The notes: generated by a model not told the origin, from the sequence alone. 64,000 nucleotides of DNA from an uncultured Selenomonadales bacterium (GCA_946408355.1 CAMJRX010000003.1:23370-87369), one strand, 5' to 3'; shown: positions 1 through 62,099, numbered from the stretch's first letter. A program made the numbers and translations.

Positions 1-554
1 AATTCGTCGCGGAAGAAACGGAACAAAATTCTGTAGCCGCGACGCTAGAAAAAATTTTGGACTTGCAACAAAAAAATTCGCGGCAATTAGTTCAAAGCCT
101 GCGCGAGAATGTAAACTTTCAAAATCAAGTACGGCGCGGTATGCAACAAGAACTTGACGCCTTGAAAGAACAACAGCGCGGCGAACAGTTCACGCCGATT
201 TTAAAATCAATCGCAACGGTCTGCGTAGAGTATAGAAAAATGTTAACGGACGAATCCATTTCAAGACGAACGCGACGGACGCTTAAATTACTTTTCGACG
301 AACTGGAAGAAATTTTATCGGAGTATGACGCAGAAATTTTTACGTCGGAAATCGGCGAGCCGCGTCGACCATTACTAACTAAAATCGTCAACATCGTCGC
401 GACTAGCAATAAAAATTTGCACAACACCATAGCTAAAAGCCGCCGTCCTGGAGTTATTCGCAACGGGCGGACACTTTATCGCGAATTCGTCGACGTTTAT
501 GTTTACGACAGCAACGATGGTGGTAGAAAATCCGAATTAGTACGCAGTGAGTAA
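1..554 (+). CDS. GrpE-like co-chaperone, 5' end truncated by window edge
   Basis: Frame is open from base 3 (…VAEETEQNSVAATLEKILDLQQKN…). Charged helical N-terminus and a GrpE-like C-terminus (NKNLHNTIAKSRRPGVIRNGRTLYREFVDVYVYD). Immediately upstream of an Hsp70 gene. Confidence 0.6.
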   Translation, partial: FVAEETEQNSVAATLEKILDLQQKNSRQLVQSLRENVNFQNQVRRGMQQELDALKEQQRGEQFTPILKSIATVCVEYRKMLTDESISRRTRRTLKLLFDELEEILSEYDAEIFTSEIGEPRRPLLTKIVNIVATSNKNLHNTIAKSRRPGVIRNGRTLYREFVDVYVYDSNDGGRKSELVRSE

Positions 555-569
555 AGGAGAAAAAAATTT

Positions 570-2198
570 ATGAGCACATACGGAATTGATTTGGGCACAA
601 CTTATTCTTGCATAGCGCGTTTGGACTCGAACGGCAACCCCGAAGTTATTCGCAACAACGAAGACGACAGCAACACCGTCGCCAGCGTAGTTTTTTTTGA
701 GAACGAAAGCAATGTAATTGTCGGGCAGGCGGCTAAGGAAAATATTGAGACTGACGGCGACCGCGTTGTACAATTTGTTAAGCGGGAAATTGGCAAACGT
801 GATACCCGCACTTACGAATTTGACGGCAAAACTTATACGCCTGTGGAGATTAGTGCATTGATTTTGACGCGGCTAAAAAATTTGGTTGAATCGCAAGGCG
901 GCACGATTGAAGACGTTGTTATAACTGTTCCCGCTTACTTTGGACTTGAGGAACGCTCTGCGACAAAACAGGCGGGTGAACTTGCCGGACTTCACGTTTT
1001 GAGCTTGATTAACGAACCGACTGCGGCGGCTTTGAGCTATTGCGCCCGTCAATTTCAAGAGGACAGAACAGTTTTAGTTTACGACTTGGGCGGCGGAACT
1101 TTCGACGTAACTGTTTTAAAAATGTCGATGACGCAAAATAATTCTGGGCGCGACGTTCAAAAAATTACGGTGCTTGCCACTGACGGCGACGATAGGCTCG
1201 GCGGTAAAGACTGGGACGATAAACTTTATAATCACATTTTGCACGCCTGTTGCGACGATAACGGCTTGACGCCCGAAGAAATCGAAGCTGAAACGCGGCA
1301 AGATATTCGCTCCAAAGTCGAGGAGGCTAAACGTAAACTTAGCAAGAAACAATCCGCAAAAGTTCGTATCGACGTTAACGGCTCGCGCACCGAAGTTGTT
1401 ATCAAGCGCACGGATTTTGAGCAGATGACTTCAGACCTCGTTGCAAAGACAATGGGCTATATTGATAAAACGTTGGATAAAGTTCCCGCTGAGGCGATTG
1501 ATACCGTTCTTTTAGTTGGCGGCTCAACTTATATGCCGATGATAATTAATGCAGTTGAGGAAAAATTTCCCGGCAAAGTTCAACAACACGACCCTGACCA
1601 AGCAGTTGCAAAGGGCGCGGCGATTTACGCAAGCATGTTGGTTGAGGAAGTCGGCTCGTTGTCCGCGCAGGGCGATGAAACTTCCGGCGGCGAAGTTGCT
1701 CAAGCTGAACAACTTACCTCGAAATTTACCGTTGAAGATCAAACGCCGCGTTCGTTCGGTCCTGGTGTCGTCGACATGAACGGCGCAAAGCATAAATACG
1801 TTTTGGAGAATTTTATAAAAATCGGCGAGAAAATGCCTGCCGTGTTCACGAAAACTTATTATCCGCTCGAAGACAATCAAGAACTCGTTCGCCTGCGCGC
1901 CTTTGAAAATATGTCAACCGACGACACATTAATTCCCTGCGTCGACGAGGACGGCAACCCGCAAGCCACCGACCCCGCGCACAACGTTAAACTTTTGGGC
2001 GAACTTATCGTTAACTTACCGCCCAATACCAGCCGTGACACGCCGATTAAAGTTACGTTTAAAGTTGATGCGTCGGGCGTACACGTCGAGGCGGTTAACA
2101 CCAAAACTAATGAGACTTTTGAAACTTTCCTGCGCACCGAAAGCGATATTGACGTTGAGGGCAGTGCCGTTCACCAACTTAGAATTTCCGCTGACTAA
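570..2198 (+). CDS. Hsp70-family protein (DnaK-like, short C-terminus)
   Basis: MSTYGIDLGTTYSCIARLD, VYDLGGGTFDVTVL, LLVGGSTYMPMI; 542 aa, shorter than canonical DnaK. Confidence 0.95.
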   Translation: MSTYGIDLGTTYSCIARLDSNGNPEVIRNNEDDSNTVASVVFFENESNVIVGQAAKENIETDGDRVVQFVKREIGKRDTRTYEFDGKTYTPVEISALILTRLKNLVESQGGTIEDVVITVPAYFGLEERSATKQAGELAGLHVLSLINEPTAAALSYCARQFQEDRTVLVYDLGGGTFDVTVLKMSMTQNNSGRDVQKITVLATDGDDRLGGKDWDDKLYNHILHACCDDNGLTPEEIEAETRQDIRSKVEEAKRKLSKKQSAKVRIDVNGSRTEVVIKRTDFEQMTSDLVAKTMGYIDKTLDKVPAEAIDTVLLVGGSTYMPMIINAVEEKFPGKVQQHDPDQAVAKGAAIYASMLVEEVGSLSAQGDETSGGEVAQAEQLTSKFTVEDQTPRSFGPGVVDMNGAKHKYVLENFIKIGEKMPAVFTKTYYPLEDNQELVRLRAFENMSTDDTLIPCVDEDGNPQATDPAHNVKLLGELIVNLPPNTSRDTPIKVTFKVDASGVHVEAVNTKTNETFETFLRTESDIDVEGSAVHQLRISAD

Positions 2199-2213
2199 TT
2201 TGGAGGCGCGGCG

Positions 2214-2492
2214 ATGAAATATTTTTTCTCGGAGATTAACGAAATTACTTTAACTTTCAGCGACATACAAGCCACCCGCGACGGCATGGAGTTTATAAAA
2301 ATTTATTTTGAGTGCCCCAACGAAAACGGCTTTAACTTTTTGGAATCTACTTTGCCGACGCTTAACGTTAAAAATTCTTACGGTTTCAGCAAAGATGAGA
2401 CTGCGCGGCTTTTGGATTATGCGCGGACGAATTCTTTTCTGATTTGGGAAATTGCTCGTGAGGAGGCAGGAAAAATTGCCGCAAGTGTGTAG
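2214..2492 (+). CDS. small hypothetical protein upstream of DUF4160 protein
   Basis: 92-aa ORF with RBS-like GGAGG; its 3' end overlaps the DUF4160 ORF. Confidence 0.65.
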   Translation: MKYFFSEINEITLTFSDIQATRDGMEFIKIYFECPNENGFNFLESTLPTLNVKNSYGFSKDETARLLDYARTNSFLIWEIAREEAGKIAASV

Positions 2493-2724
2493 ATTGCTCG
2501 GTTATCTGATTTTCTTTTGGTCGAACGAAAATAACGAACCGATTCATGTTCACGTTTGCAAGAGCAAGCCTTCCGCTGACGCAACCAAAATTTGGATAGA
2601 GGACGTGCCGCGCTTGGAGCATAACAAAAGCCAAATTCCTGCCAAAGATTTAAACCGAATTATGCAATGGCTCGCGGCAAATAAAAATTTTGTCGTAGAT
2701 AAATGGATTGAACATTTCAAATAA
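2476..2724 (+). CDS. DUF4160 domain protein
   Basis: MPQVCRLLGYLIFFWSNENNEPIHVHVCKSKPSADATKIW; TTG start after GAGGAGG, overlapping the upstream gene. Confidence 0.75.
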   Translation: MPQVCRLLGYLIFFWSNENNEPIHVHVCKSKPSADATKIWIEDVPRLEHNKSQIPAKDLNRIMQWLAANKNFVVDKWIEHFK

Positions 2725-2761
2725 GCGGCAGCATTGTCGACGATAGGAAGGAGTTTTTATC

Positions 2762-3040
2762 ATGAAACGAATTAAAAATACACGGCGCAAACCTTTACCC
2801 GAACCAAAGCTTATCAAAGAGCCGATAACTTTTTCGCCGCTTGAGTGGGATTATTTCGTTGAAGAAGTTAAAATGCGCGGCATTGATAAGTTCGACCATT
2901 GAATTAACAACGCAAAATTTCTCGCTAAACTTGACCATTCTGCCGCCTCTGAATATTGTGTTGTCGCTACAATGGATGAATTAAATGCAATGGCTAACGG
3001 CGCAACGATTGAGGAACTCGGAGGCATTGTCAATGAGTAA
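2762..3040 (+). pseudogene. putative antitoxin partner of YoeB, interrupted by in-frame TGA at 2900-2902
   Basis: MKRIKNTRRKPLPEPKLIKEPITFSPLEWDYFVEEVKMRGIDKFDH[TGA]INNAKFLAKLDHSAASEYCVVATMDELNAMANGATIEELGGIVNE*; stop overlaps the toxin start (ATGAGTAA). Confidence 0.6.
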
Positions 3041-3311
3041 AATTTCTTTCGAGGACGACGGCTGGCTCCATTATTATCTTTATTGACAAATGCAAGACCG
3101 TAAAACTTTGCGCCGAATCAATCAACTTTTGCAAAGCATAGAACGCGACGGCGCGTTAAACGGTATCGGCAAGCCCAAAAAACTTAAACATCAAGATGCC
3201 TATTCTCGACGCATTGACGACGCTAACCGACTTATTTATAAAGTTGACGGCGACGAGACGATTGTTTTATCTTGCAAGAAATCATTACGAGGACAAATAA
3301 TTTATGATTAA
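3033..3311 (+). pseudogene. yoeB: YoeB-family (Txe/YoeB) mRNA-interferase toxin, in-frame TGA at 3084-3086
   Basis: DDGWLHYYLY[TGA]QMQDRKTLRRINQLLQSIERDGALNGIGKPKKLKHQDAYSRRIDDANRLIYKV; YoeB pattern with TGA at the usual W of the YW motif. Confidence 0.8.
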
Positions 3312-3981
3312 GCTTTACGATACGAGCGGCAACGGTTATATCGTGGTCGAAGTTAGCGAATTTTATTGCAATGATTATCACGCGTACTTCGCCAAAACCG
3401 GCAAGGATACTTATCTGCGCGACTTCGCCGAGCTGTTTTATACCGTTCAAGATATGCAAAAAGGAAGTCAACCAACCGACGACGGCAATTTACTTTTGAC
3501 GCCGGAAGAAAAAGACGAACTGATTGCGAAAAATCCCGCCGCTGAAAAATGGATTCGTCCGTTTTTGGGCGCAAAGGAATTTATTCAAAATATCCCGCGC
3601 TATTGTCTGTGGCTTGAGGATTGTCCGCCAAATGAATTGCGCAAAATGCCGCTCGTATATCAGCGCGTGGAAAAAGTTCGCGAATTCCGTTTGGCAAGCA
3701 AAAAAGCCGCAACTCGTCGCGACTCCGCTACGTCCTGGCTTTTTCAAGAACGACGCCAGCCTAAGACCGATTATCTTTTGGTGTCGTGTGTAAGTTCTGA
3801 ACTCCGCTAATATATTCCGATTGGTTGTATTTCAAGTAACGTTATCTGTAGCGACGCAAATCATATAGTTATGGCGGCTTACGACTTCTCAAAAAACATG
3901 ACGGAAGCGCAAATGAAAGTTGCCTTCCTAAACATATATCAACGCTTGAAAAATTTTGACGAACTTTATAAATCGATTTGA
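3304..3981 (+). pseudogene. chimeric remnant of a class I SAM-dependent DNA methyltransferase (Type IIG/MmeI-like C-terminal region)
   Basis: DMQKGSQPTDDGNLLLTPEEKDELIAKNPAAEKWIRPFLGAKEFIQNIPRYCLWLEDCPPNELRKMPLVYQRVEKVREFRLASKKAATRRDSATSWLFQERRQPKTDYLLV is typical of the specificity part. In-frame TAA at 3808, then YIPIGCISSNVICSDANHIV joined directly to MAAYDFSKNMTEAQMKVAFLNIYQRL, with the intervening segment missing. Confidence 0.75.
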
Positions 3982-4001
3982 ATTTCGGAGGAGGGTTAAA
4001 T

Positions 4002-7000
4002 TTGGCTAAACGAAATATTTTTGAAATGCTCGGTTTGGAATTTGATCCTCCCGACAACGTGAAAAAAATTCGCGCCGCCTATGAGGCTTGGAAAAAACGG
4101 TTGACGACTGAGCAAAATACAATGGTTGACCCGACGAGATTAGCGGAAATACGTTCGGAATTGCAAATGGACGATTACATTGCGCTGACGATTGACAACC
4201 CGCGATTTCGACAGCAGGCGGCGGAGTCTTTAAAGCGTCAACGTATAGAGGAATTGCGGCTTTATATCGACTTACAGCGAGGCAATACGCAGGGCACGTT
4301 GCAAGTTAATCAATCGCAAATTCGGCAGATACGCGACAAGTTGCGACTAAGTCCGGCGACGATTGAGGCGACGTATAAAGAACAGGGCTTTGAGATAAAA
4401 CCGGCGAAGACCGCGCAGAAAATTTTGGCGACGCTGAATAATTTTTTCCTGAATGATTCGGTAATGGATGAGTTGCGGAAAAATTTTGCGGCTTTCCAAC
4501 TTGTCCCCGATGAAAAAAATTTCGCGTGGTCTGCAAATGTTCACGACCTCTACGAGCTTGCATTTTATATCGAGAATCAAATTGAGCCGTCGCCAGATTT
4601 TTATCGCCGCCACCCGACTGACGACTTGCGAGAAATTTTCCGTGAAGCCGCCAAAAAAGTTTCCGCGCCAATTCCGCAGTGGCAATCGATTAAAGCTCTT
4701 ATAAATCTTGCGCAGACTCAAGTTTTCAACACCGACGACAGCCGCTTTAAATATGACCACTCGTTGAAGATTGAGACGCTTAACGATTTTTTTGCCAAAA
4801 TAAAAGCAGCGCCCGATTTGTTTAAGCACGACAATTATTTTGCTGACAACTGTATAAATCGAATTCAGCGCACGTTCCCGAACTTTTTAACATACGAGCA
4901 AAGTGCCGCGCTCTACAACAAGGCGGCGGGCTTGCTGAAAAATCCCTACGAATCGACGGGCGACGCGGGCGAAAATTCTTTTTGTGTGACGTGTGCTAAC
5001 TGTGGAGCCTTTGAAATTTTCCGTACTCGTGAGGAAAGTGAGCGGGCGCATTGCAAAATCTGCGGCGAAAATTTTTTTATCGACTGTCCGAAATGCGGCA
5101 AGAAAATTCCTGCTACTGCTGACCGTTGCACCGTTTGCGACTTTTCTATTGTGGAGTTTAAAAAGTTTTCAAATTACATTGGCGAGGCAAATTCAATGCT
5201 TGACCTCGTGGAGCAAGCCCGCAATGCCGATGAGGACGTTCACATTGTAATGGCGGAAATTATAAAAATTTTGGCTAAAGCTAAGCTCCTCAAGCCCGAA
5301 TCCAACGACTTAAAAAAATTGGAATGGCGCATTAATAAAATTGCCGGCGAACTCAAGCGGCGCGAATTATTTGCTTGGGCTGATAAAAAGTTGCCGAGCT
5401 TGTCGATTGCGCCCGCCAAAGCCGTCAGCGATTGCATTGAGATTTTGCGCAAGATTAAGGACTACAAGCCCGCACTTGACCGATTGAAATTAATTCCGCC
5501 CAAAGCCCCCAGCGCGATTGTCGCCACGCTTAGGGAAAATTATTCGCCCGCCTCAAGTATCGGAAAAATTTCTGTTAAGGCTAAGTCGACAGGCGTTGGC
5601 TCCACCGAGTCGAATTTAATCTGCAACATTTCTTGGCAAGTTCCCGCCGATTTGGGCTTGACTTACACGCTGATAAAAAAAGTTGACGGCGTGCCCAAAA
5701 CTTATCGTGACGGCGAAATTTTGATTGAGAATACCGACCGCCTCGAATTTACGGATTACGACGTTAAACCTGGCGTGCTTTACGGCTACGCGATTTTTTC
5801 TGTGCGACTTGGTACAATTTCCGCGCCGACGACTACGACCGCCGCCCATTACAGCGACCTCGACGAGAAAAAATTAATCGCTAAGACGGAGGACGGCGCA
5901 TGTAAATTTATTTGGCGTTTACCGTCGGAAAATTGTTTAGGCGTGCGGATTTTGCGCAGTGACAGCGCGGGTAAAAGCGTCGTGGTTGCTGACTGTGTGC
6001 AATCGCCCTTCGTGGACAACAGCGTTAAAAATCGCAAGCAATATCAATATCGTCTGCAATGCGTCTACTACGCCGCCGAAGATAATATTTCCAACAACGA
6101 AAAATATTTTGCCCGTCAAAGCTCCGATGAAATTTTGCGCGGCGTGTGGAAGATTGAACGAACTTATAAATACAGTCACGGCTTGACAGTTAGCTTGACG
6201 CCCGAAAAGCCGCCTAAACCTGTTGATAATTTGATTTGCACTGTAAGGAGTGGGCGAGCGGCATTTCATTGGAAATCGACGGGCGATTTTACCATTTGGT
6301 TTAAAGAAGTTGTCAAAGAGTCCGCGCAGATTGATAACAAAGTTTTTGCGTTGGATAAAGTCGACGAAATTTTAGGTAGTGGCGTTGTCTACAAAAAGGC
6401 GGAGAGTTCTGACGAGACTTGCGAATTTGCTTTAAGCGGCGATAATGTTAAAATTGCCGTCATCAGTGCAACGCGGGAATTTGGACTTATAAACGAAATT
6501 ATAACTTGCGCGAATGTCGAGCCGTGCGAGATTGACGCTAACAAAACGCAGATTGACGCGGGCGGCTTGAAACTCGTCTTAAAGAGCGTTCCGGAAAATC
6601 TTTACATGATTCATTACAAAATTAACACGAGCGACGCCGATGAACTTTACGCGACGATTGAGACGGCTAAGGCGCGGCAGATGAATAGAATTTACGCGGC
6701 GAAATATGCGCAGGATACTTTTATTTTGCAGACGCATTTGCCGCCCAAAGAAATTTTTATTACGGTTATAGGCGAGTATAAATTTAGTGATGGAACGTCG
6801 GCTTATTGTGCGCCGAGCACTTTGACTTTGAACAATCGCCCGAAGGAAATTATTTCGTATCGGCTGGAGTGGGGAACGAGCGGACTTTTTAAGAAAGAAA
6901 TTCACGCTAAGGATTGCAAGCTGATAATCGAGAGCAACGCCAAATCTACGCCGAAAATGTCGTTGGTATGTCGAAGTGATGGGCGCATGAATATTGAGGA

Positions 7001-7208
7001 GGGCGATTCGACGACGCGCATATTAGGCACGGTTCGCGCATATCCTGAAGGCTACAGCGGCGGGCGGCTTGAAACTAATCTGCCCAATGAAATTTGGAAA
7101 GAAGTTTCGTCGGGAACCGTCGTCAAGCTCCTCACTTCCAAAGAGGATGAAAAGCGTTTTGAGCTTAAAGCGTCGCGCCCTGATAGTCTTATTGTTCCGA
7201 AGAAGTAG
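4002..7208 (+). CDS. large multidomain protein: J-like/helical N-terminus, zinc ribbons, C-terminal beta (Fn3-like) domains
   Basis: TTG start after GGAGGAGGG; CVTCANCG…CKICG…CPKCGKKIPATADRCTVC ribbons; repeated beta-rich segments such as ISWQVPADLGLTYTLIKKVDG. Confidence 0.7.
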   Translation: MAKRNIFEMLGLEFDPPDNVKKIRAAYEAWKKRLTTEQNTMVDPTRLAEIRSELQMDDYIALTIDNPRFRQQAAESLKRQRIEELRLYIDLQRGNTQGTLQVNQSQIRQIRDKLRLSPATIEATYKEQGFEIKPAKTAQKILATLNNFFLNDSVMDELRKNFAAFQLVPDEKNFAWSANVHDLYELAFYIENQIEPSPDFYRRHPTDDLREIFREAAKKVSAPIPQWQSIKALINLAQTQVFNTDDSRFKYDHSLKIETLNDFFAKIKAAPDLFKHDNYFADNCINRIQRTFPNFLTYEQSAALYNKAAGLLKNPYESTGDAGENSFCVTCANCGAFEIFRTREESERAHCKICGENFFIDCPKCGKKIPATADRCTVCDFSIVEFKKFSNYIGEANSMLDLVEQARNADEDVHIVMAEIIKILAKAKLLKPESNDLKKLEWRINKIAGELKRRELFAWADKKLPSLSIAPAKAVSDCIEILRKIKDYKPALDRLKLIPPKAPSAIVATLRENYSPASSIGKISVKAKSTGVGSTESNLICNISWQVPADLGLTYTLIKKVDGVPKTYRDGEILIENTDRLEFTDYDVKPGVLYGYAIFSVRLGTISAPTTTTAAHYSDLDEKKLIAKTEDGACKFIWRLPSENCLGVRILRSDSAGKSVVVADCVQSPFVDNSVKNRKQYQYRLQCVYYAAEDNISNNEKYFARQSSDEILRGVWKIERTYKYSHGLTVSLTPEKPPKPVDNLICTVRSGRAAFHWKSTGDFTIWFKEVVKESAQIDNKVFALDKVDEILGSGVVYKKAESSDETCEFALSGDNVKIAVISATREFGLINEIITCANVEPCEIDANKTQIDAGGLKLVLKSVPENLYMIHYKINTSDADELYATIETAKARQMNRIYAAKYAQDTFILQTHLPPKEIFITVIGEYKFSDGTSAYCAPSTLTLNNRPKEIISYRLEWGTSGLFKKEIHAKDCKLIIESNAKSTPKMSLVCRSDGRMNIEEGDSTTRILGTVRAYPEGYSGGRLETNLPNEIWKEVSSGTVVKLLTSKEDEKRFELKASRPDSLIVPKK

Positions 7209-7270
7209 GTAATTAGGTTAAGAGGTTATTAGAACTAATTCCCTAATTACCTCTTAACCTATTTCCCTAA
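7207..7270. repeat. 8-bp periodic inverted repeat array, copy A
   Basis: TAGGTAAT TAGGTTAA GAGGTTAT TAGAACTA ATTCCCTA ATTACCTC TTAACCTA TTTCCCTA; begins in the stop codon of the upstream gene. Confidence 0.75.
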
Positions 7271-7295
7271 AAATCGACCGAAGGGAGATTTTTCA

Positions 7296-8444
7296 ATGTT
7301 TAGCAAGTCGGCGGCAATTTGTCCGCACTGTCTAAGGGAATTAAAATTGAGCGGCATGAAATTTTACTGTGTCCCCGACGAAGACAATCGCCACGAAGTT
7401 AAGCTGTCGTTCACCGATAAATTTAGAGGGCGGCTCCCCGTCTGCAAAAGAAAATTCTGCAGGAATCACGGCTTGACGATTCGCGAGGCAGCTTGCAAGC
7501 ATTGTGGAGAACCGCTCCCGCCGCAACTTTTATTCCACGATAAATATTTAAGTTTCTGCGCGGTCGGCGTGTCTGGTGCGGGCAAGTCAAGCTACATGAC
7601 GACGCTTTTACACGAGCTAAAATATTCGGGGTTGCCGTGGATTTTGCAAGCAATGGACGTGGATACGACACGGCGGGCACAACTCAACGAACAATACGTT
7701 TACGAGGAACGGCATTGCTTGAGAGGAACGGAGGCGGGCGTTTCACCTAAGCCACAACTTTGGACGATTATGGACAATTCAGTTAAGGGCGAAAAAATTC
7801 CAACATACGCGCTAACAATTTACGACGGCGCGGGCGAAGATTGCGAACGCATTGATTATACGCCGCTGGACGCAAAGATAAGCCGTTACTTGTCAGGCGC
7901 AAGAATGTTGTTGATAATGTTCGACCCGTTGTTATTGTCAAGCGTGCGCGTGGAGCTTTCCAGAGAAACTTTGAACTCCTCAATGGCGACCGAACGTCAA
8001 ACGAGTGCGCCGGGAAATATGGTTAACATGGTGAATTCGTTGGCAAATTATATCCGCCGCAACTGCAACATTCCGCCTGGCAAAAAGATTGACCGCCGCG
8101 CCGCCGTCGTCTTAACCAAACTTGACGCATTAACCGAAATGCTTAACGGTTTTTCTTCCGGCTCAACGATTCTTAAAGAAAGTCCTCACGTACAAAATCG
8201 CGGCTTCGTCGAATCTGATAGCGTAATGGTTGACTTGGAAATACGCGATTGGCTAACACGGCAGGGCGAAACGGCTTTTCTCGGCGCGATTGATGCAAAT
8301 TTTAAAGACGTGCGAGTTTTCGGAGTGTCAAGTTTTGGACGTCCGCCTGATTCTCGTAAACGTCTTGCCAAAATTCGACCGCACAGAGTTTTAGATCCGT
8401 TAATGTGGATGCTTGCCAGCGAAGGCATTATCCCGACGATTTAA
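7296..8444 (+). CDS. zinc-ribbon plus P-loop GTPase-like protein (resembles double-GTPase/TRAFAC conflict-system GTPases)
   Basis: N-terminal CPHC and CKHCG cysteine pairs; Walker A GVSGAGKSSY; TIYDGAGED; late VVLTKLDAL (NKxD-like). Confidence 0.65.
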   Translation: MFSKSAAICPHCLRELKLSGMKFYCVPDEDNRHEVKLSFTDKFRGRLPVCKRKFCRNHGLTIREAACKHCGEPLPPQLLFHDKYLSFCAVGVSGAGKSSYMTTLLHELKYSGLPWILQAMDVDTTRRAQLNEQYVYEERHCLRGTEAGVSPKPQLWTIMDNSVKGEKIPTYALTIYDGAGEDCERIDYTPLDAKISRYLSGARMLLIMFDPLLLSSVRVELSRETLNSSMATERQTSAPGNMVNMVNSLANYIRRNCNIPPGKKIDRRAAVVLTKLDALTEMLNGFSSGSTILKESPHVQNRGFVESDSVMVDLEIRDWLTRQGETAFLGAIDANFKDVRVFGVSSFGRPPDSRKRLAKIRPHRVLDPLMWMLASEGIIPTI

Positions 8445-8456
8445 GGAGTGATTCCT

Positions 8457-9044
8457 TTGAAAAAATTTTTAGCTGTATTCTTTGCAATAATTTTGTTGAC
8501 GACGACCGCTCAAGCCGCTGAACCCGTGCGCATTGCCCGTTTGCCAATAATTTTTCAACGCGCAATCCCCGACAATGATACTTGCGCCGAACTCGAAACT
8601 ATTCTTTCTCGCGCAGTTCACATTCCGCTAAACGGAACTTTACAGCTCGTTGAATATTTGCCGCCAAAAAATTCTGCGAAAGTTTTAGGCGACATGTGGC
8701 AAGATATGCGCACCAAAAATAAAAAGGCGAAACTCCAAGACGCAATGCGCCCGCTCGCCCAAAAACTTAACGCAGATATTATTGTTTGCCCCGTTCTAAA
8801 TCAGTACAGCCAATACGTCGCAATTTCTTCTAGTTGGAGTGGCGAAAATTATATGGTAAGCAATGTTCGCTTTGAATTGATTGTTTACGACCGCCGCACC
8901 GACGAATTGATTGACAAAAAAGCCTCACAGATTTACAACGATTCATACAGCCTGCGCGGCACGGCGTCTTTCCTGTCAAAAATTTGTTTAGATAGAGTTA
9001 TTGAGAGTACTAAATTACGTCAACGCATAATTGCCATAAGGTAG
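8457..9044 (+). CDS. secreted/periplasmic protein of unknown function
   Basis: MKKFLAVFFAIILLTTTAQA signal peptide; TTG start downstream of AAGGAG. Confidence 0.6.
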   Translation: MKKFLAVFFAIILLTTTAQAAEPVRIARLPIIFQRAIPDNDTCAELETILSRAVHIPLNGTLQLVEYLPPKNSAKVLGDMWQDMRTKNKKAKLQDAMRPLAQKLNADIIVCPVLNQYSQYVAISSSWSGENYMVSNVRFELIVYDRRTDELIDKKASQIYNDSYSLRGTASFLSKICLDRVIESTKLRQRIIAIR

Positions 9045-9049
9045 AAATT

Positions 9050-10348
9050 TTAATGCAGATATTTATCCAACAATGCCTCGTAGTCGGGTATTGGCAACGG
9101 GCGCGAGAAAAAATAACCTTGAATTGCCACGTCGCCCAAGCTAGACACGTAATCCATTTGCGCTTTAGTTTCCACGCCTTCAATTACAATGCTCATGCCC
9201 AATTCCTCTGCCAATTCGACGATAAATTTTAAGATTATCGCCACGCGCTTAGATTTTTCCAATTCGCGGATAAATGCCATGTCGACTTTGAGAGTATCAA
9301 GCGGCATGTCTTTTAGCATGTTCAGCGACGAATAGCCCGACCCAAAGTCATCCATTAAAATCGAAAATCCTAATTCTCGGAACGTAGAAATCATATCGAG
9401 GAGTTGGAGCTGATTATCGGTGTACGCGCTTTCTGTTACTTCCAATTTTAACATCCACGGTTCCAAGTCGTATTTTTCCAGCAACGTTGCGAGGAAGTCA
9501 GGCAAGTCTAAGCTGTAGAAATTTAGCCGCGATAAGTTAACGGAAATGGGAACGACCTCTTTACCTTCGTCGAGGCGTTTACGTTGAAGTCTACACGCTT
9601 CCTCCCAAACAAAGCGGTCAAGGCGCACGATAAAGCCATTGCGTTCAAAGACGGGAATAAATTTGCCGGGAGAAACCATGCCGTGTATCGGATGAAACCA
9701 ACGGACAAGAGCTTCTGCACTGGCGACGGTATTTTTATGCGGGTCGTAAATCGGCTGAAGATAAATCGTAAACTGATTCTCCAAAAGGGCGGCTTCCATG
9801 TTGCCGGTTATAAGTTGTTCTTCAATCATTTGCTCGCGCATTTTTGCATCGTAGTAAGCGTAGCGCGTAACATAATTTCCTTTGATTCGCCGAAGTGCCA
9901 TACCTGCGCGGTCGCACATTTGGTCAATCGGCAACTTAATACTTTCAACGGGATAAATACCCGCAAAAAATAAAATGTTGTGGCTAATGTGGAGAGATTG
10001 AATTCGAGTATCGAGGTCTTTAATAATTTGCTCAATTTTAAGTTCATCACTCGGCACGCACAAAATAAAATGGTCAGCTTCAGCGCGACAACTTATGGAA
10101 GTTCGCGGATTTAATGTTGCCTTAAAATAATCTGCCGCCGCCCGCAAAATCAAATTACCTGTGTCGACGTGGAATAAATCATTAATTATTTTAAAGCAAC
10201 TTATATCCATGCAGACGATACTATATTTAACGTCGTAACGGGCACCCAAAAGTAATGTCGCTTCCCGATAAAAAGCCTCGCGATTATAAAGCCCCGTCAA
10301 TGAATCAAACTTGCTGCCGATTATCGGCAAAACTCCTTCTGCTCGCAA
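9050..10348 (-). CDS. GGDEF (degenerate)-EAL domain protein
   Basis: FDSLTGLYNREAFYREA; degenerate SCRAEADHF in place of GGDEF; SAEALVRWFHP and DDFGSGYSSL. Confidence 0.9.
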   Translation of the reverse strand: MRAEGVLPIIGSKFDSLTGLYNREAFYREATLLLGARYDVKYSIVCMDISCFKIINDLFHVDTGNLILRAAADYFKATLNPRTSISCRAEADHFILCVPSDELKIEQIIKDLDTRIQSLHISHNILFFAGIYPVESIKLPIDQMCDRAGMALRRIKGNYVTRYAYYDAKMREQMIEEQLITGNMEAALLENQFTIYLQPIYDPHKNTVASAEALVRWFHPIHGMVSPGKFIPVFERNGFIVRLDRFVWEEACRLQRKRLDEGKEVVPISVNLSRLNFYSLDLPDFLATLLEKYDLEPWMLKLEVTESAYTDNQLQLLDMISTFRELGFSILMDDFGSGYSSLNMLKDMPLDTLKVDMAFIRELEKSKRVAIILKFIVELAEELGMSIVIEGVETKAQMDYVSSLGDVAIQGYFFSRPLPIPDYEALLDKYLH

Positions 10349-10527
10349 TGCAATCGCTCCCCTCGCCTTTTAAAATTTTTTTCAACTATTCAACGTGAAA
10401 AAATAAATCCCTGCTGAAATATGCGGGGATTTTAGCTTTTAAGCTCCGACTAATCAACGGGCTTTCGACTTTAAGCAGGAAAAATTTTTCATTGCCCGAA
10501 TCAAAGCAAACAAAGGAGGCTAAATAA

Positions 10528-12312
10528 ATGGCAACAATTATAACTAAAGACGGAAGTTTAGCGGAAGTCGAAGGCGCGGAAGCTTTGCACGCACTAAGAC
10601 ACACCGCCTCGCATATCATGGCGCAAGCGATAAAACATCTCTACGGCGGCGCAGACGGTAAAGGCGTTCAACTGGCTATTGGTCCGGCGATTGATACCGG
10701 TTTTTACTACGACATTGACACCGAGAAAAAAATTACCGACGAAGACCTCGCCGACATCGAACGCGAAATGAAAAATATCGTCAAGCAAAATCTCAAGCTG
10801 GAACGTTCGACACTTTCACGAGCCGACGCGCTGAAAAAATTTGGCGACGAGGGCGAAATTTATAAAGTTGAACTGATAGAGGCTCTGCCCGAAGACGCGG
10901 AAATTTCTCTGTTCACACAGGGCGATTTTACTGACTTGTGCGCAGGTCCTCACGTTCAATCGACGGGCAAAGTTAAGGCGTTTAAGTTAATGTCGATTGC
11001 GGGCGCGTATTGGCGCGGCGACGAACATAATAAAATGCTCCAGCGCATTTACGGCACGGCGTTTGAAACTAAAGACGAGCTAAAAGATTATCTGCACATG
11101 CTGGAGGAGGCGGCGCGTCGTGACCACCGTAAACTTGGCAAGGAATTAGATTTATTCAGCTTGCATGACGAAGGTCCCGGCTTCCCGTTTTTCCACCCCA
11201 ACGGCATGATTATTCAAAATGAGCTGTTAAATTATTGGCGCGAAGTTCATCGCCGTTACGGTTATCAAGAAATTAAGACGCCGATAATTTTAAATCGCAA
11301 GCTCTGGGAAACTTCTGGGCACTGGGATCATTACAAAGAAAATATGTACTTCACTAAGATTGACGAGGAAGATTATGCCGTTAAGCCCATGAATTGTCCT
11401 GGTAGTATGTTGGTTTACAATACGCACGTGCATAGCTATCGCGACTTGCCGTTGAAGTTGGCGGAATTGGGATTAGTTCACCGACACGAGAAAAGCGGCG
11501 TTTTGCACGGCTTGTTTAGGGTTCGCAACTTTACTCAGGACGACGCACATATTTACATGACGCCCGCGCAGGTTGAGCCGGAAATCCAAAAGACGATTGA
11601 CTTATTCGACGAGGTTTATAAAACTTTTGGATTGACTTACAAAGCTGAACTGTCGACGCGCCCCGAAAATTCAATGGGTGACGACGCAACTTGGGAATTG
11701 GCGACTAATGCCTTGCAAAAAGCTTTGGAACATCGCGGGCTTGATTATGTCGTTAACGAGGGCGACGGCGCGTTTTATGGTCCGAAGATTGACTTTCACT
11801 TGAAAGATTCAATCGGTAGAACGTGGCAATGCGGAACGATTCAGCTTGACATGCTCTTGCCCGAAAAGTTCGACTTAAATTATATCGGCGAGGACGGAGA
11901 AAAACATCGTCCGATTATGGTTCACCGCGTTGTTTACGGCAGTATTGAGCGGTTCATTGGCATTCTTATCGAAAATTATGCGGGCGCGTTCCCTGTGTGG
12001 TTGGCTCCCGTTCAGATAAAACTTTTGCCGATAACCGACAATCATCTTGCCTACGCTAAAGAACTTGCCGATAAATTTTTCGCGCTCAAGTTCCGCGCAG
12101 AAATCGACGACCGCAACGAGAAAATCAATAAAAAAATTCGCGACAGCCAAGTCCGTAAAATTCCATACACGATTGTTATCGGCGACAAGGAAGTTGAGAC
12201 GGGCATTTTGCCGATTAGAAAATACAGCGCAAAAGATAACGTTTCAATGAGCGTCGACGAATTTATTGCTTACGTTCAAAATAAAATTTCCACACGCGAC
12301 CAAAACTTTTAA
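10528..12312 (+). CDS. thrS: threonyl-tRNA synthetase, apparently lacking the TGS domain
   Basis: LRHTASHIMAQAIKHLYGG, DLCAGPHV, MNCPGSMLVYNTHVHSYRDLPLKLAELG; 594 aa, with the catalytic/editing module starting about 25 residues from the N-terminus. Confidence 0.95.
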   Translation: MATIITKDGSLAEVEGAEALHALRHTASHIMAQAIKHLYGGADGKGVQLAIGPAIDTGFYYDIDTEKKITDEDLADIEREMKNIVKQNLKLERSTLSRADALKKFGDEGEIYKVELIEALPEDAEISLFTQGDFTDLCAGPHVQSTGKVKAFKLMSIAGAYWRGDEHNKMLQRIYGTAFETKDELKDYLHMLEEAARRDHRKLGKELDLFSLHDEGPGFPFFHPNGMIIQNELLNYWREVHRRYGYQEIKTPIILNRKLWETSGHWDHYKENMYFTKIDEEDYAVKPMNCPGSMLVYNTHVHSYRDLPLKLAELGLVHRHEKSGVLHGLFRVRNFTQDDAHIYMTPAQVEPEIQKTIDLFDEVYKTFGLTYKAELSTRPENSMGDDATWELATNALQKALEHRGLDYVVNEGDGAFYGPKIDFHLKDSIGRTWQCGTIQLDMLLPEKFDLNYIGEDGEKHRPIMVHRVVYGSIERFIGILIENYAGAFPVWLAPVQIKLLPITDNHLAYAKELADKFFALKFRAEIDDRNEKINKKIRDSQVRKIPYTIVIGDKEVETGILPIRKYSAKDNVSMSVDEFIAYVQNKISTRDQNF

Positions 12313-12328
12313 AATAATTTTAGACAAC

Positions 12329-12366
12329 AAAAAAGCGACGGGATAATTTCTCGCCGCTTAATTTTT
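12329..12366. terminator. intergenic hairpin between convergent genes
   Basis: AAGCGACGGGATAATTTCTCGCCGCTTAATTTTTTT. Confidence 0.6.
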
Positions 12367-13068
12367 TTACTCAACTTCGGTACCCTCAACGGCTCCTTCC
12401 CAATCGATAATGCCGCCCATTTCGTAGACTTGCCTATAACCTTTCTCGACGAGAAGTTTTGCCGTTTGCCGTGCACGATTGCCATCACCGCAGTAACAGA
12501 TAATAGGCGCGTTTTTGTTGGGAATTTTAGAAAAATCTTCCGCCATAACAGCTTCCTTTGGTACAAAAACGGCTCCGACAATGTGTCTAGCTTCGTAATC
12601 TTTTGGGAAACGACAATCTATCAAAACCGCTTCTGAATTAGTTTCTAAAATTTCTTGCGCCTCGTCGTGAGTTATGTGTTTATAAATTTCTGCTCCGACG
12701 ACGGGACCTTTCCAATCAGCAATGCCTCCGAATTCGTAAACATTTTTATAACCTTTATCAGCAAGAAGTTGCGCTGAATCTTGAGCACGACGACCCGTCC
12801 AACAGTAAACTAAAATCGTTTGGTTCTTGTCGGGTATGGACGCAAAATTTCCGTTGCGCAACTCTTCAAGCGGCAGGGAAATCGCGTTGGGAATGTGTTT
12901 CTTTTCGTACTCTTCAGGCGTGCGCACGTCGAGGACAATTACGTTGGGATTATCGGCTATAATTTTTGTTGCCTCGTCATGTGTAATAGATTTGTAAATA
13001 ATTTTTTCACCGCAACCTGTACACAACGCAACGATTAAAACAATCAGCAATGCTAAAAACTTTTTCAT
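12367..13068 (-). CDS. lipoprotein with two tandem rhodanese domains
   Basis: Lipobox LCTGCG; VLDVRTPEEYEKKHIPNA…VYCWTGRRA and LIDCRFPKDYEARHIVGA…CYCGDGNRA. Confidence 0.9.
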   Translation of the reverse strand: MKKFLALLIVLIVALCTGCGEKIIYKSITHDEATKIIADNPNVIVLDVRTPEEYEKKHIPNAISLPLEELRNGNFASIPDKNQTILVYCWTGRRAQDSAQLLADKGYKNVYEFGGIADWKGPVVGAEIYKHITHDEAQEILETNSEAVLIDCRFPKDYEARHIVGAVFVPKEAVMAEDFSKIPNKNAPIICYCGDGNRARQTAKLLVEKGYRQVYEMGGIIDWEGAVEGTEVE

Positions 13069-28172: not shown

Positions 28173-28197
28173 GAGAAAATCTCCTTTCAGTCGATTT

Positions 28198-28286
28198 TAG
28201 GTTAATAGGTTGTTAGGTTAAGAGGGAAATAGGTTAATAGGTTATTAGCACTAATTCCCTAATCCCCTAATTCCCTAATAACCTAA
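28198..28286. repeat. 8-bp periodic inverted repeat array, copy B
   Basis: Blocks AGGTTAAT AGGTTGTT AGGTTAAG AGGGAAAT … CTAATTCCCTAATCCCCTAATTCCCTAATAACCTAAGAATCG; overlaps the phoH stop codon. Confidence 0.8.
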
Positions 28287-29610: not shown

Positions 29611-29710
29611 TTTTAGGTTATTAGGTTGTTAGGTTGTTAGGTTATTAGGGAATTAGGTTAATAGGTTAATATTACTAATTCCCTAATCCCCTAATCCCCT
29701 ATTAACCTAT
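29611..29710. repeat. 8-bp periodic inverted repeat array, copy C
   Basis: TTAGGTTA TTAGGTTG TTAGGTTG TTAGGTTA TTAGGGAA TTAGGTTA ATAGGTTA … TAATTCCC TAATCCCC TAATCCCC TATTAACC TATATC. Confidence 0.85.
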
Positions 29711-61860: not shown

Positions 61861-61946
61861 TTTGAACAAAAAAATCGCCCTCAAAACCGTTTTTAGACGT
61901 TCAAAACGATTTCAGAGCCTCAAAATCATTTTCAAAGCCCAAAATT

Positions 61947-62099
61947 AAACTTCAAAGCAAGTTTCAAACTTCCAAATCAACTTCAAACCGCAAAATCAAA
62001 CTTCAAAGTAAGTTTCAAACTTCCAAATCAACTTCAAACCGCAAAATCAAACTTCAAAACCGTTTTCAAACTTCCAAATCCATTTCAAAGCCCCAAAAT
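61947..62099. repeat. 51-bp tandem repeat, about 3 copies
   Basis: Unit AAACTTCAAAGCAAGTTTCAAACTTCCAAATCAACTTCAAACCGCAAAATC starting at 61947, 61998 and (degenerate) 62049; internal CTTCAAA/CTTCCAAA sub-repeats. Confidence 0.85.

Follow-up and report, generated by a model that had tools for sequence, protein, structure and literature searches.

A GAP1-free form of the HSP70-type DO-GTPase systems, widely retained in the rumen genus Quinella

The stretch of DNA analysed here, 64,000 nucleotides long and referred to as the window (C3:23370-87369 of genome G000), comes from Quinella, a genus of large, uncultured rumen bacteria in the family Selenomonadaceae. Its first nine kilobases carry, all on the plus strand, genes for a GrpE-like nucleotide exchange factor (1..554), a lidless second Hsp70 of 542 amino acids (570..2198), a large adaptor of 1068 amino acids (4002..7208) and a zinc-ribbon DO-GTPase of 382 amino acids, called GTPase B below (7296..8444). 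These genes represent the HSP70 theme of the DO-GTPase (GAP1-N2) systems, a type that is already known, in a form that is new. We suggest, with a probability of about 0.6, that the Quinella module is a domesticated, GAP1-independent derivative of this theme that serves in Hsp70 remodelling, rather than an active defence system.

GTPase-centric conflict systems that combine zinc-ribbon DO-GTPases with GAP1 have been described (Kaur et al. 2020, eLife 9:e52696, PMC7159879). Their second GAP1-N2 theme, seen in actinobacteria and firmicutes, comprises HSP70, GrpE and a protein in which FNIII is joined to DnaJ or TPR. The same authors regard GAP1 and the GTPase as the core that does not vary, and their anti-invader role for these systems is a prediction (PMC7159879); our search of open-access literature turned up no experiments on DO-GTPase/GAP1 systems. 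The Quinella genes share with the published theme a DO-GTPase with N-terminal zinc ribbons, an HSP70 with an adjacent GrpE, an FNIII-repeat protein with a possible DnaJ-like part, and occurrence in the Firmicutes. They differ from it in having no GAP1, no second, transmembrane GTPase and no linked effector, in being partly scattered yet near-universal within one genus, and in a J-like part that lacks the HPD motif. Complete loci occur in Clostridia, where L050 and L054 (and in part L052) encode a transmembrane GTPase A, GrpE, Hsp70, adaptor, GTPase B and GAP1, L054 additionally coding for an Hsp70-vWA protein between Hsp70 and adaptor; the Quinella genes are 31-63% identical to these clostridial counterparts and, in L050 and L054, are matched in gene order as well. 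Much-diverged complete versions, with GAP1 and the second membrane GTPase, are present in two other Selenomonadaceae (G043 and G066). Given the complete loci and the published description, the idea of an undescribed system, put forward in a first-pass annotation of the window, fails; the link that it drew to double-GTPase conflict systems fits the HSP70 theme well. Downstream of GAP1 in L054 (14484-18538) lie genes for a HerA/FtsK-like ATPase and a DNA/RNA non-specific endonuclease, which could serve the complete system as effectors.

The Quinella form was surveyed in 66 genomes, all of them metagenome-assembled and one per species. Hsp70 was found in 60 of these, the adaptor in 62 and the GTPase in 50, counts that are lower bounds because many of the genomes are incomplete. 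GAP1 was found in none of the 66, either with Pfam PF20013 or with a clostridial GAP1 as query; the latter matters because clostridial GAP1s match Pfam GAP1-M only, not GAP1-N2. Weak GAP1-N2 matches in nine Quinella genomes proved to be chance hits to HemL. As controls for detectability, PF20013 does recover GAP1 in G043 and G066, and the clostridial GAP1 recovers its relative in L052 (34% identity, E ~1e-115); the clostridial adaptor recovers Quinella adaptors at an equal level of identity. The membrane-bound GTPase A was also absent from all 66 genomes, its query returning GTPase B only, and the gene neighbourhoods read, those of the window and of other Quinella loci, contained neither a linked effector nor a hypervariable module.

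Retention of the genes extends to genomes in which they are unlinked. Hsp70 and adaptor occur together in 58 genomes; they lie no more than 6 kb apart in 20, and contig breaks explain part of the other 38. In 11 genomes the two genes are on different contigs or far apart, both at least 5 kb from the left contig ends, the set of 11 being defined by left ends only. More than 6 kb of other sequence precedes the adaptor in L038, L041, L049, L051 and L081, and in G098 the Hsp70, adaptor and GTPase are on three contigs. Identity to the window proteins covaries between Hsp70 and adaptor (rho 0.75), in the unlinked subset as well (Spearman 0.81), and between adaptor and GTPase (rho 0.88). In the survey set beforehand as the refuting test, the four genes were co-conserved in Quinella and Clostridia, and the grouping of Hsp70/GrpE, adaptor and GTPase into one system can be upheld. 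A class-wide search of 102 genera (Quinella and 101 others, E <= 1e-15) found the adaptor in none of the other 101, and for this reason a single acquisition, followed by GAP1 loss and vertical retention in Quinella, appears the most likely history. Near-universal retention despite the loss of GAP1 and the scattering of the genes suggests an ordinary, useful component of the cell.

One part of the genus has gone further. In the adaptor tree, eight genomes without the GTPase form one clade with support 1.0 (G142, G147, G079, G012, G151, G146, G143 and G132); G113 may represent a second GTPase loss, and G152 may be a gap. The clade keeps Hsp70 and adaptor, and within it GrpE-Hsp70 and the adaptor are under purifying selection, with ratios of nonsynonymous to synonymous substitution rates (dN/dS) of 0.05-0.14. 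For the window genes against relatives at 80-97% identity the ratio is 0.03-0.12 for Hsp70, adaptor and GTPase (0.03-0.09 for Hsp70 alone), 0.09-0.17 for GrpE and ~0.2 for a signal-peptide gene that follows the GTPase; these values are simple Nei-Gojobori counts, with dS near saturation in some pairs. The FN3 region of the adaptor, whose repeats have been suggested to serve as variable sensors in the systems described earlier (PMC7159879), is hardly more variable than its other domains. In G142 (L073:8881-16001), three genes in the same direction follow the adaptor and encode a 468-amino-acid protein of no family, a 758-amino-acid PAPS-reductase/4Fe-4S protein and a product of at least 1147 amino acids.

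The window Hsp70 (PF00012, E 5e-88) keeps the nucleotide-binding domain motifs GIDLGTTYS, DLGGGTFDV and LVGGST and the beta substrate-binding domain. Aligned with the DnaK of its own genome, it stops where the lid of DnaK would start and is without the C-terminal helical lid, and its interdomain linker is altered and not of the VLLLD type. The likeness to DnaK-DnaJ-GrpE lies in the Hsp70 nucleotide-binding domain and in GrpE, whereas the missing lid, the altered linker and a partner without HPD set the window proteins apart. The normal hrcA-grpE-dnaK-dnaJ arrangement had been reported as absent, which is correct within the window; contig C8 of this genome, however, carries an unbroken canonical grpE-dnaK-dnaJ set (L009:4054-7796). 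The GrpE-like protein matches PF01025 with E 2e-5, slightly below the curated cut-off. Its true start is a TTG 16 nucleotides left of base 1, the full open reading frame of 189 amino acids being found at L008:15355-15924, and GrpE homologues stand immediately 5' of Hsp70 in L026, L034, L037, L040, L044, L050 and L054. No CIRCE/HrcA operator with three or fewer mismatches was found upstream of either the window GrpE or the canonical one. The same genome also encodes a 973-amino-acid Hsp70-family protein (L010:7020-11024, on C2 of G000) with a long C-terminal part that is unassigned, preceded by a 356-amino-acid open reading frame of no known family.

An alignment of 18 homologues, an AlphaFold model and an FN3 match define the adaptor as, in order, a J-like N-terminus (residues 1-70), a helical region, tandem zinc ribbons (331-379), a helical/TPR-like region, FN3 domains and a beta-rich C-terminus. 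What had been read as several zinc ribbons and beta-rich repeats is one tandem pair of ribbons, with four invariant CxxC motifs (C331/334, 351/354, 362/365 and 376/379), and at least three fibronectin type III domains (residues ~499-840). The latter match 4gh7 in structure (Z 14.2, 4.2 A across 255 residues; VIA) and fibronectin modules in Foldseek (E 6e-11). The model has a mean local confidence (pLDDT) of 81, and its placement of the domains relative to one another is unreliable because the global score (pTM) is only 0.37. The N-terminus of the proposed J-type adaptor resembles a J domain in its helix pattern and its NxFExLG motif; J function is unproven, since HPD is absent from all 20 adaptor homologues inspected. 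A comparison of the N-terminus with the DnaJ profile (hhalign) gave a probability of 1%, which is not significant, and structural comparison of the full-length adaptor, which barely probed the N-terminus, brought out no DnaJ-like fold. Sequence searches of solved structures with adaptor and GTPase returned only weak FN3 and P-loop matches.

The GTPase has invariant Cys pairs, a P-loop (GVSGAGKSS), a DGAGED switch/Walker-B segment and a G4 motif, TKLD (VLTKLD). Its nearest sequence family is DO-GTPase1 (PF19975, E 4.4e-5, 23.3 bits against a cut-off of 27); it also matches PF19993 weakly (E 0.017), the family matched by its homologues in L055 and L057. The model (pTM 0.84) has YcjX as its closest solved fold (Z 13.9, ~1.3 above the runner-up), while Foldseek alone ranks atlastins and Ras-like GTPases at the top with low TM-scores. 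YcjX is an E. coli stress protein (PDB 6nz4-6nz6), and the likeness extends over 236 residues at 3.9 A and 16% identity, although by sequence only the P-loop segment matches (E 0.004); the window GTPase differs in its shorter length, in the zinc ribbons at its front end and in its setting with Hsp70. Even with YcjX as the closest solved fold, the best Pfam match is a DO-GTPase, and the protein was not assigned to an unrelated housekeeping family.

We propose that the Quinella ancestor most likely received a clostridial cluster of GTPase A, GrpE, Hsp70, adaptor, GTPase B and GAP1, and that its lineage would then have shed GAP1 and the membrane GTPase, with the cytosolic chaperone half left in place. 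In such a module the lidless Hsp70 would be recycled by its own GrpE, and the large adaptor would bring it to one class of client and so give client specificity, with the zinc ribbons and fibronectin-III repeats binding client or scaffold; the zinc-ribbon GTPase may act as a switch controlling whether the adaptor complex assembles or is released. Several points count against this proposal. The adaptor is broken in two members of the GTPase-less clade, by a frameshift in G012 and a stop in G132, which could mean decay. Most Quinella genomes are incomplete assemblies, so that single absences are weak, and a divergent replacement for GAP1 may be encoded elsewhere in the genome. The direction from Clostridia to Quinella is read off from the rarity of the genes in the class rather than from a rooted, family-wide tree, and the order of events, physical interaction, client binding and the switch role are all things that we infer.

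Other explanations have to be set against these data. The module could be an active, Kaur-type anti-invader system, with some other protein, encoded at an unlinked site, standing in for GAP1 and the effector. The ancestral complete loci are indeed of the predicted conflict type, L054 has its HerA-like and DNA/RNA endonuclease genes downstream, and the window locus has toxin and restriction fragments next to it. We nevertheless regard immunity as unlikely: the Quinella loci read have no effector or hypervariable module, the genes are retained near-universally in the genus with low dN/dS across all domains including FN3, and the toxin genes belong to an insertion that close relatives lack. PADLOC defence families gave no match save a weak overlap with Hsp70, and the defence role first envisaged for the genes found no support in Quinella. 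A decaying, functionless remnant would account for the loss of GAP1 and GTPase A, for the loss of GTPase B in one clade and for the two broken adaptors, but it is very improbable with dN/dS at 0.03-0.14 and with reading frames preserved in almost every species, unlinked genes included.

Just one feature hints at a client, a co-directional run of prepilin-like genes directly 5' of GrpE-Hsp70 in six loci (L072, at 1144-3154, L073, L075, L078, L082 and L085). Together with the transmembrane parts and cell-wall domains that published GAP1-N2 systems often have (PMC7159879), it could point to a dedicated chaperone for the assembly of envelope or surface structures, for example of prepilin-like proteins. 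That this is the function of the module seems quite doubtful to us, however, as the linkage is limited to the GTPase-less clade and G098, the prepilin call was made from a pattern at the N-terminus and a weak match to TadE, the window GrpE adjoins housekeeping shikimate genes on the other strand, and all remaining parts look cytosolic.

Within the preferred reading, a domesticated and GAP1-independent derivative, we would only tentatively go on to picture a conflict system turned core cell module, free of GAP1 and in one clade of the DO-GTPase, with a genus-specific cellular client that is possibly a surface or envelope complex. If this were true, the chaperone half would be separable from the GTPase-GAP1 half and its function could be tested. 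Strong selection acts on the Hsp70-adaptor half in a genus that has no GAP1, and also in the one clade that has no GTPase either; this suggests that the half is useful alone. Quinella provides a dissection of the system made by nature and casts doubt on reading the HSP70 theme as immune only.

The first-pass annotation had described a run of five co-directional genes, GrpE-like, Hsp70, adaptor, GTPase and signal-peptide, and all five were confirmed in place and direction. The run is not contiguous, however, since an insertion outside the system (2214..3810, plus strand) separates Hsp70 from the adaptor. It comprises a 92-amino-acid open reading frame, a DUF4160 gene (PF13711, E 7e-18), a YoeB-like toxin gene (PF06769, E 2e-19) and a truncated MmeI target-recognition fragment (PF20466, E 3e-37). 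The 97% identical locus L026 is without it and has ~0.4 kb between Hsp70 and adaptor. In several species an apparent insertion hot spot lies between Hsp70 and adaptor or immediately 5' of the latter, with YoeB near the adaptor in L025, L030 and L034 and an MmeI target-recognition domain in L025, L028 and L037. The adaptor gene itself begins at a TTG with a GGAGGAGG site ahead. Upstream of GrpE, an SDR gene and the shikimate genes lie on the opposite strand; a GGDEF-EAL gene and thrS are found downstream of the locus. An Rfam search of window positions 1-12500 gave no match.

The signal-peptide protein (8448..9044, plus strand, 198 amino acids, called as an open reading frame) matches no family. 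Its gene is present in 46 of the 66 Quinella genomes, adjoins the GTPase in 26 of the 39 that have both, and occurs in seven without a GTPase. A common companion of the GTPase in Quinella, it is probably not the part of the system that it had been taken for, and it falls outside the conserved core. A further candidate, p209 (L040:11171-11797; also L046, L047 and L077), encodes 209-234 amino acids with no Pfam family and comes after the GTPase in roughly a dozen loci, taking the same place behind the adaptor in those that have no GTPase. We do not count it as part of the core because, although present in 26 of the 66 genomes, it is absent from the window genome and present in one genome without the system; it is a possible accessory partner. 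Elsewhere in the window, octamer tandem repeats (TTAGGTTA / TAGGTTAA) occur at 28197-28286 and 29613-29668, with a spacing of ~1.3 kb, and a tandem repeat with a 51-bp unit, in 3.9 copies with 85% matches, lies at 61900-62099.

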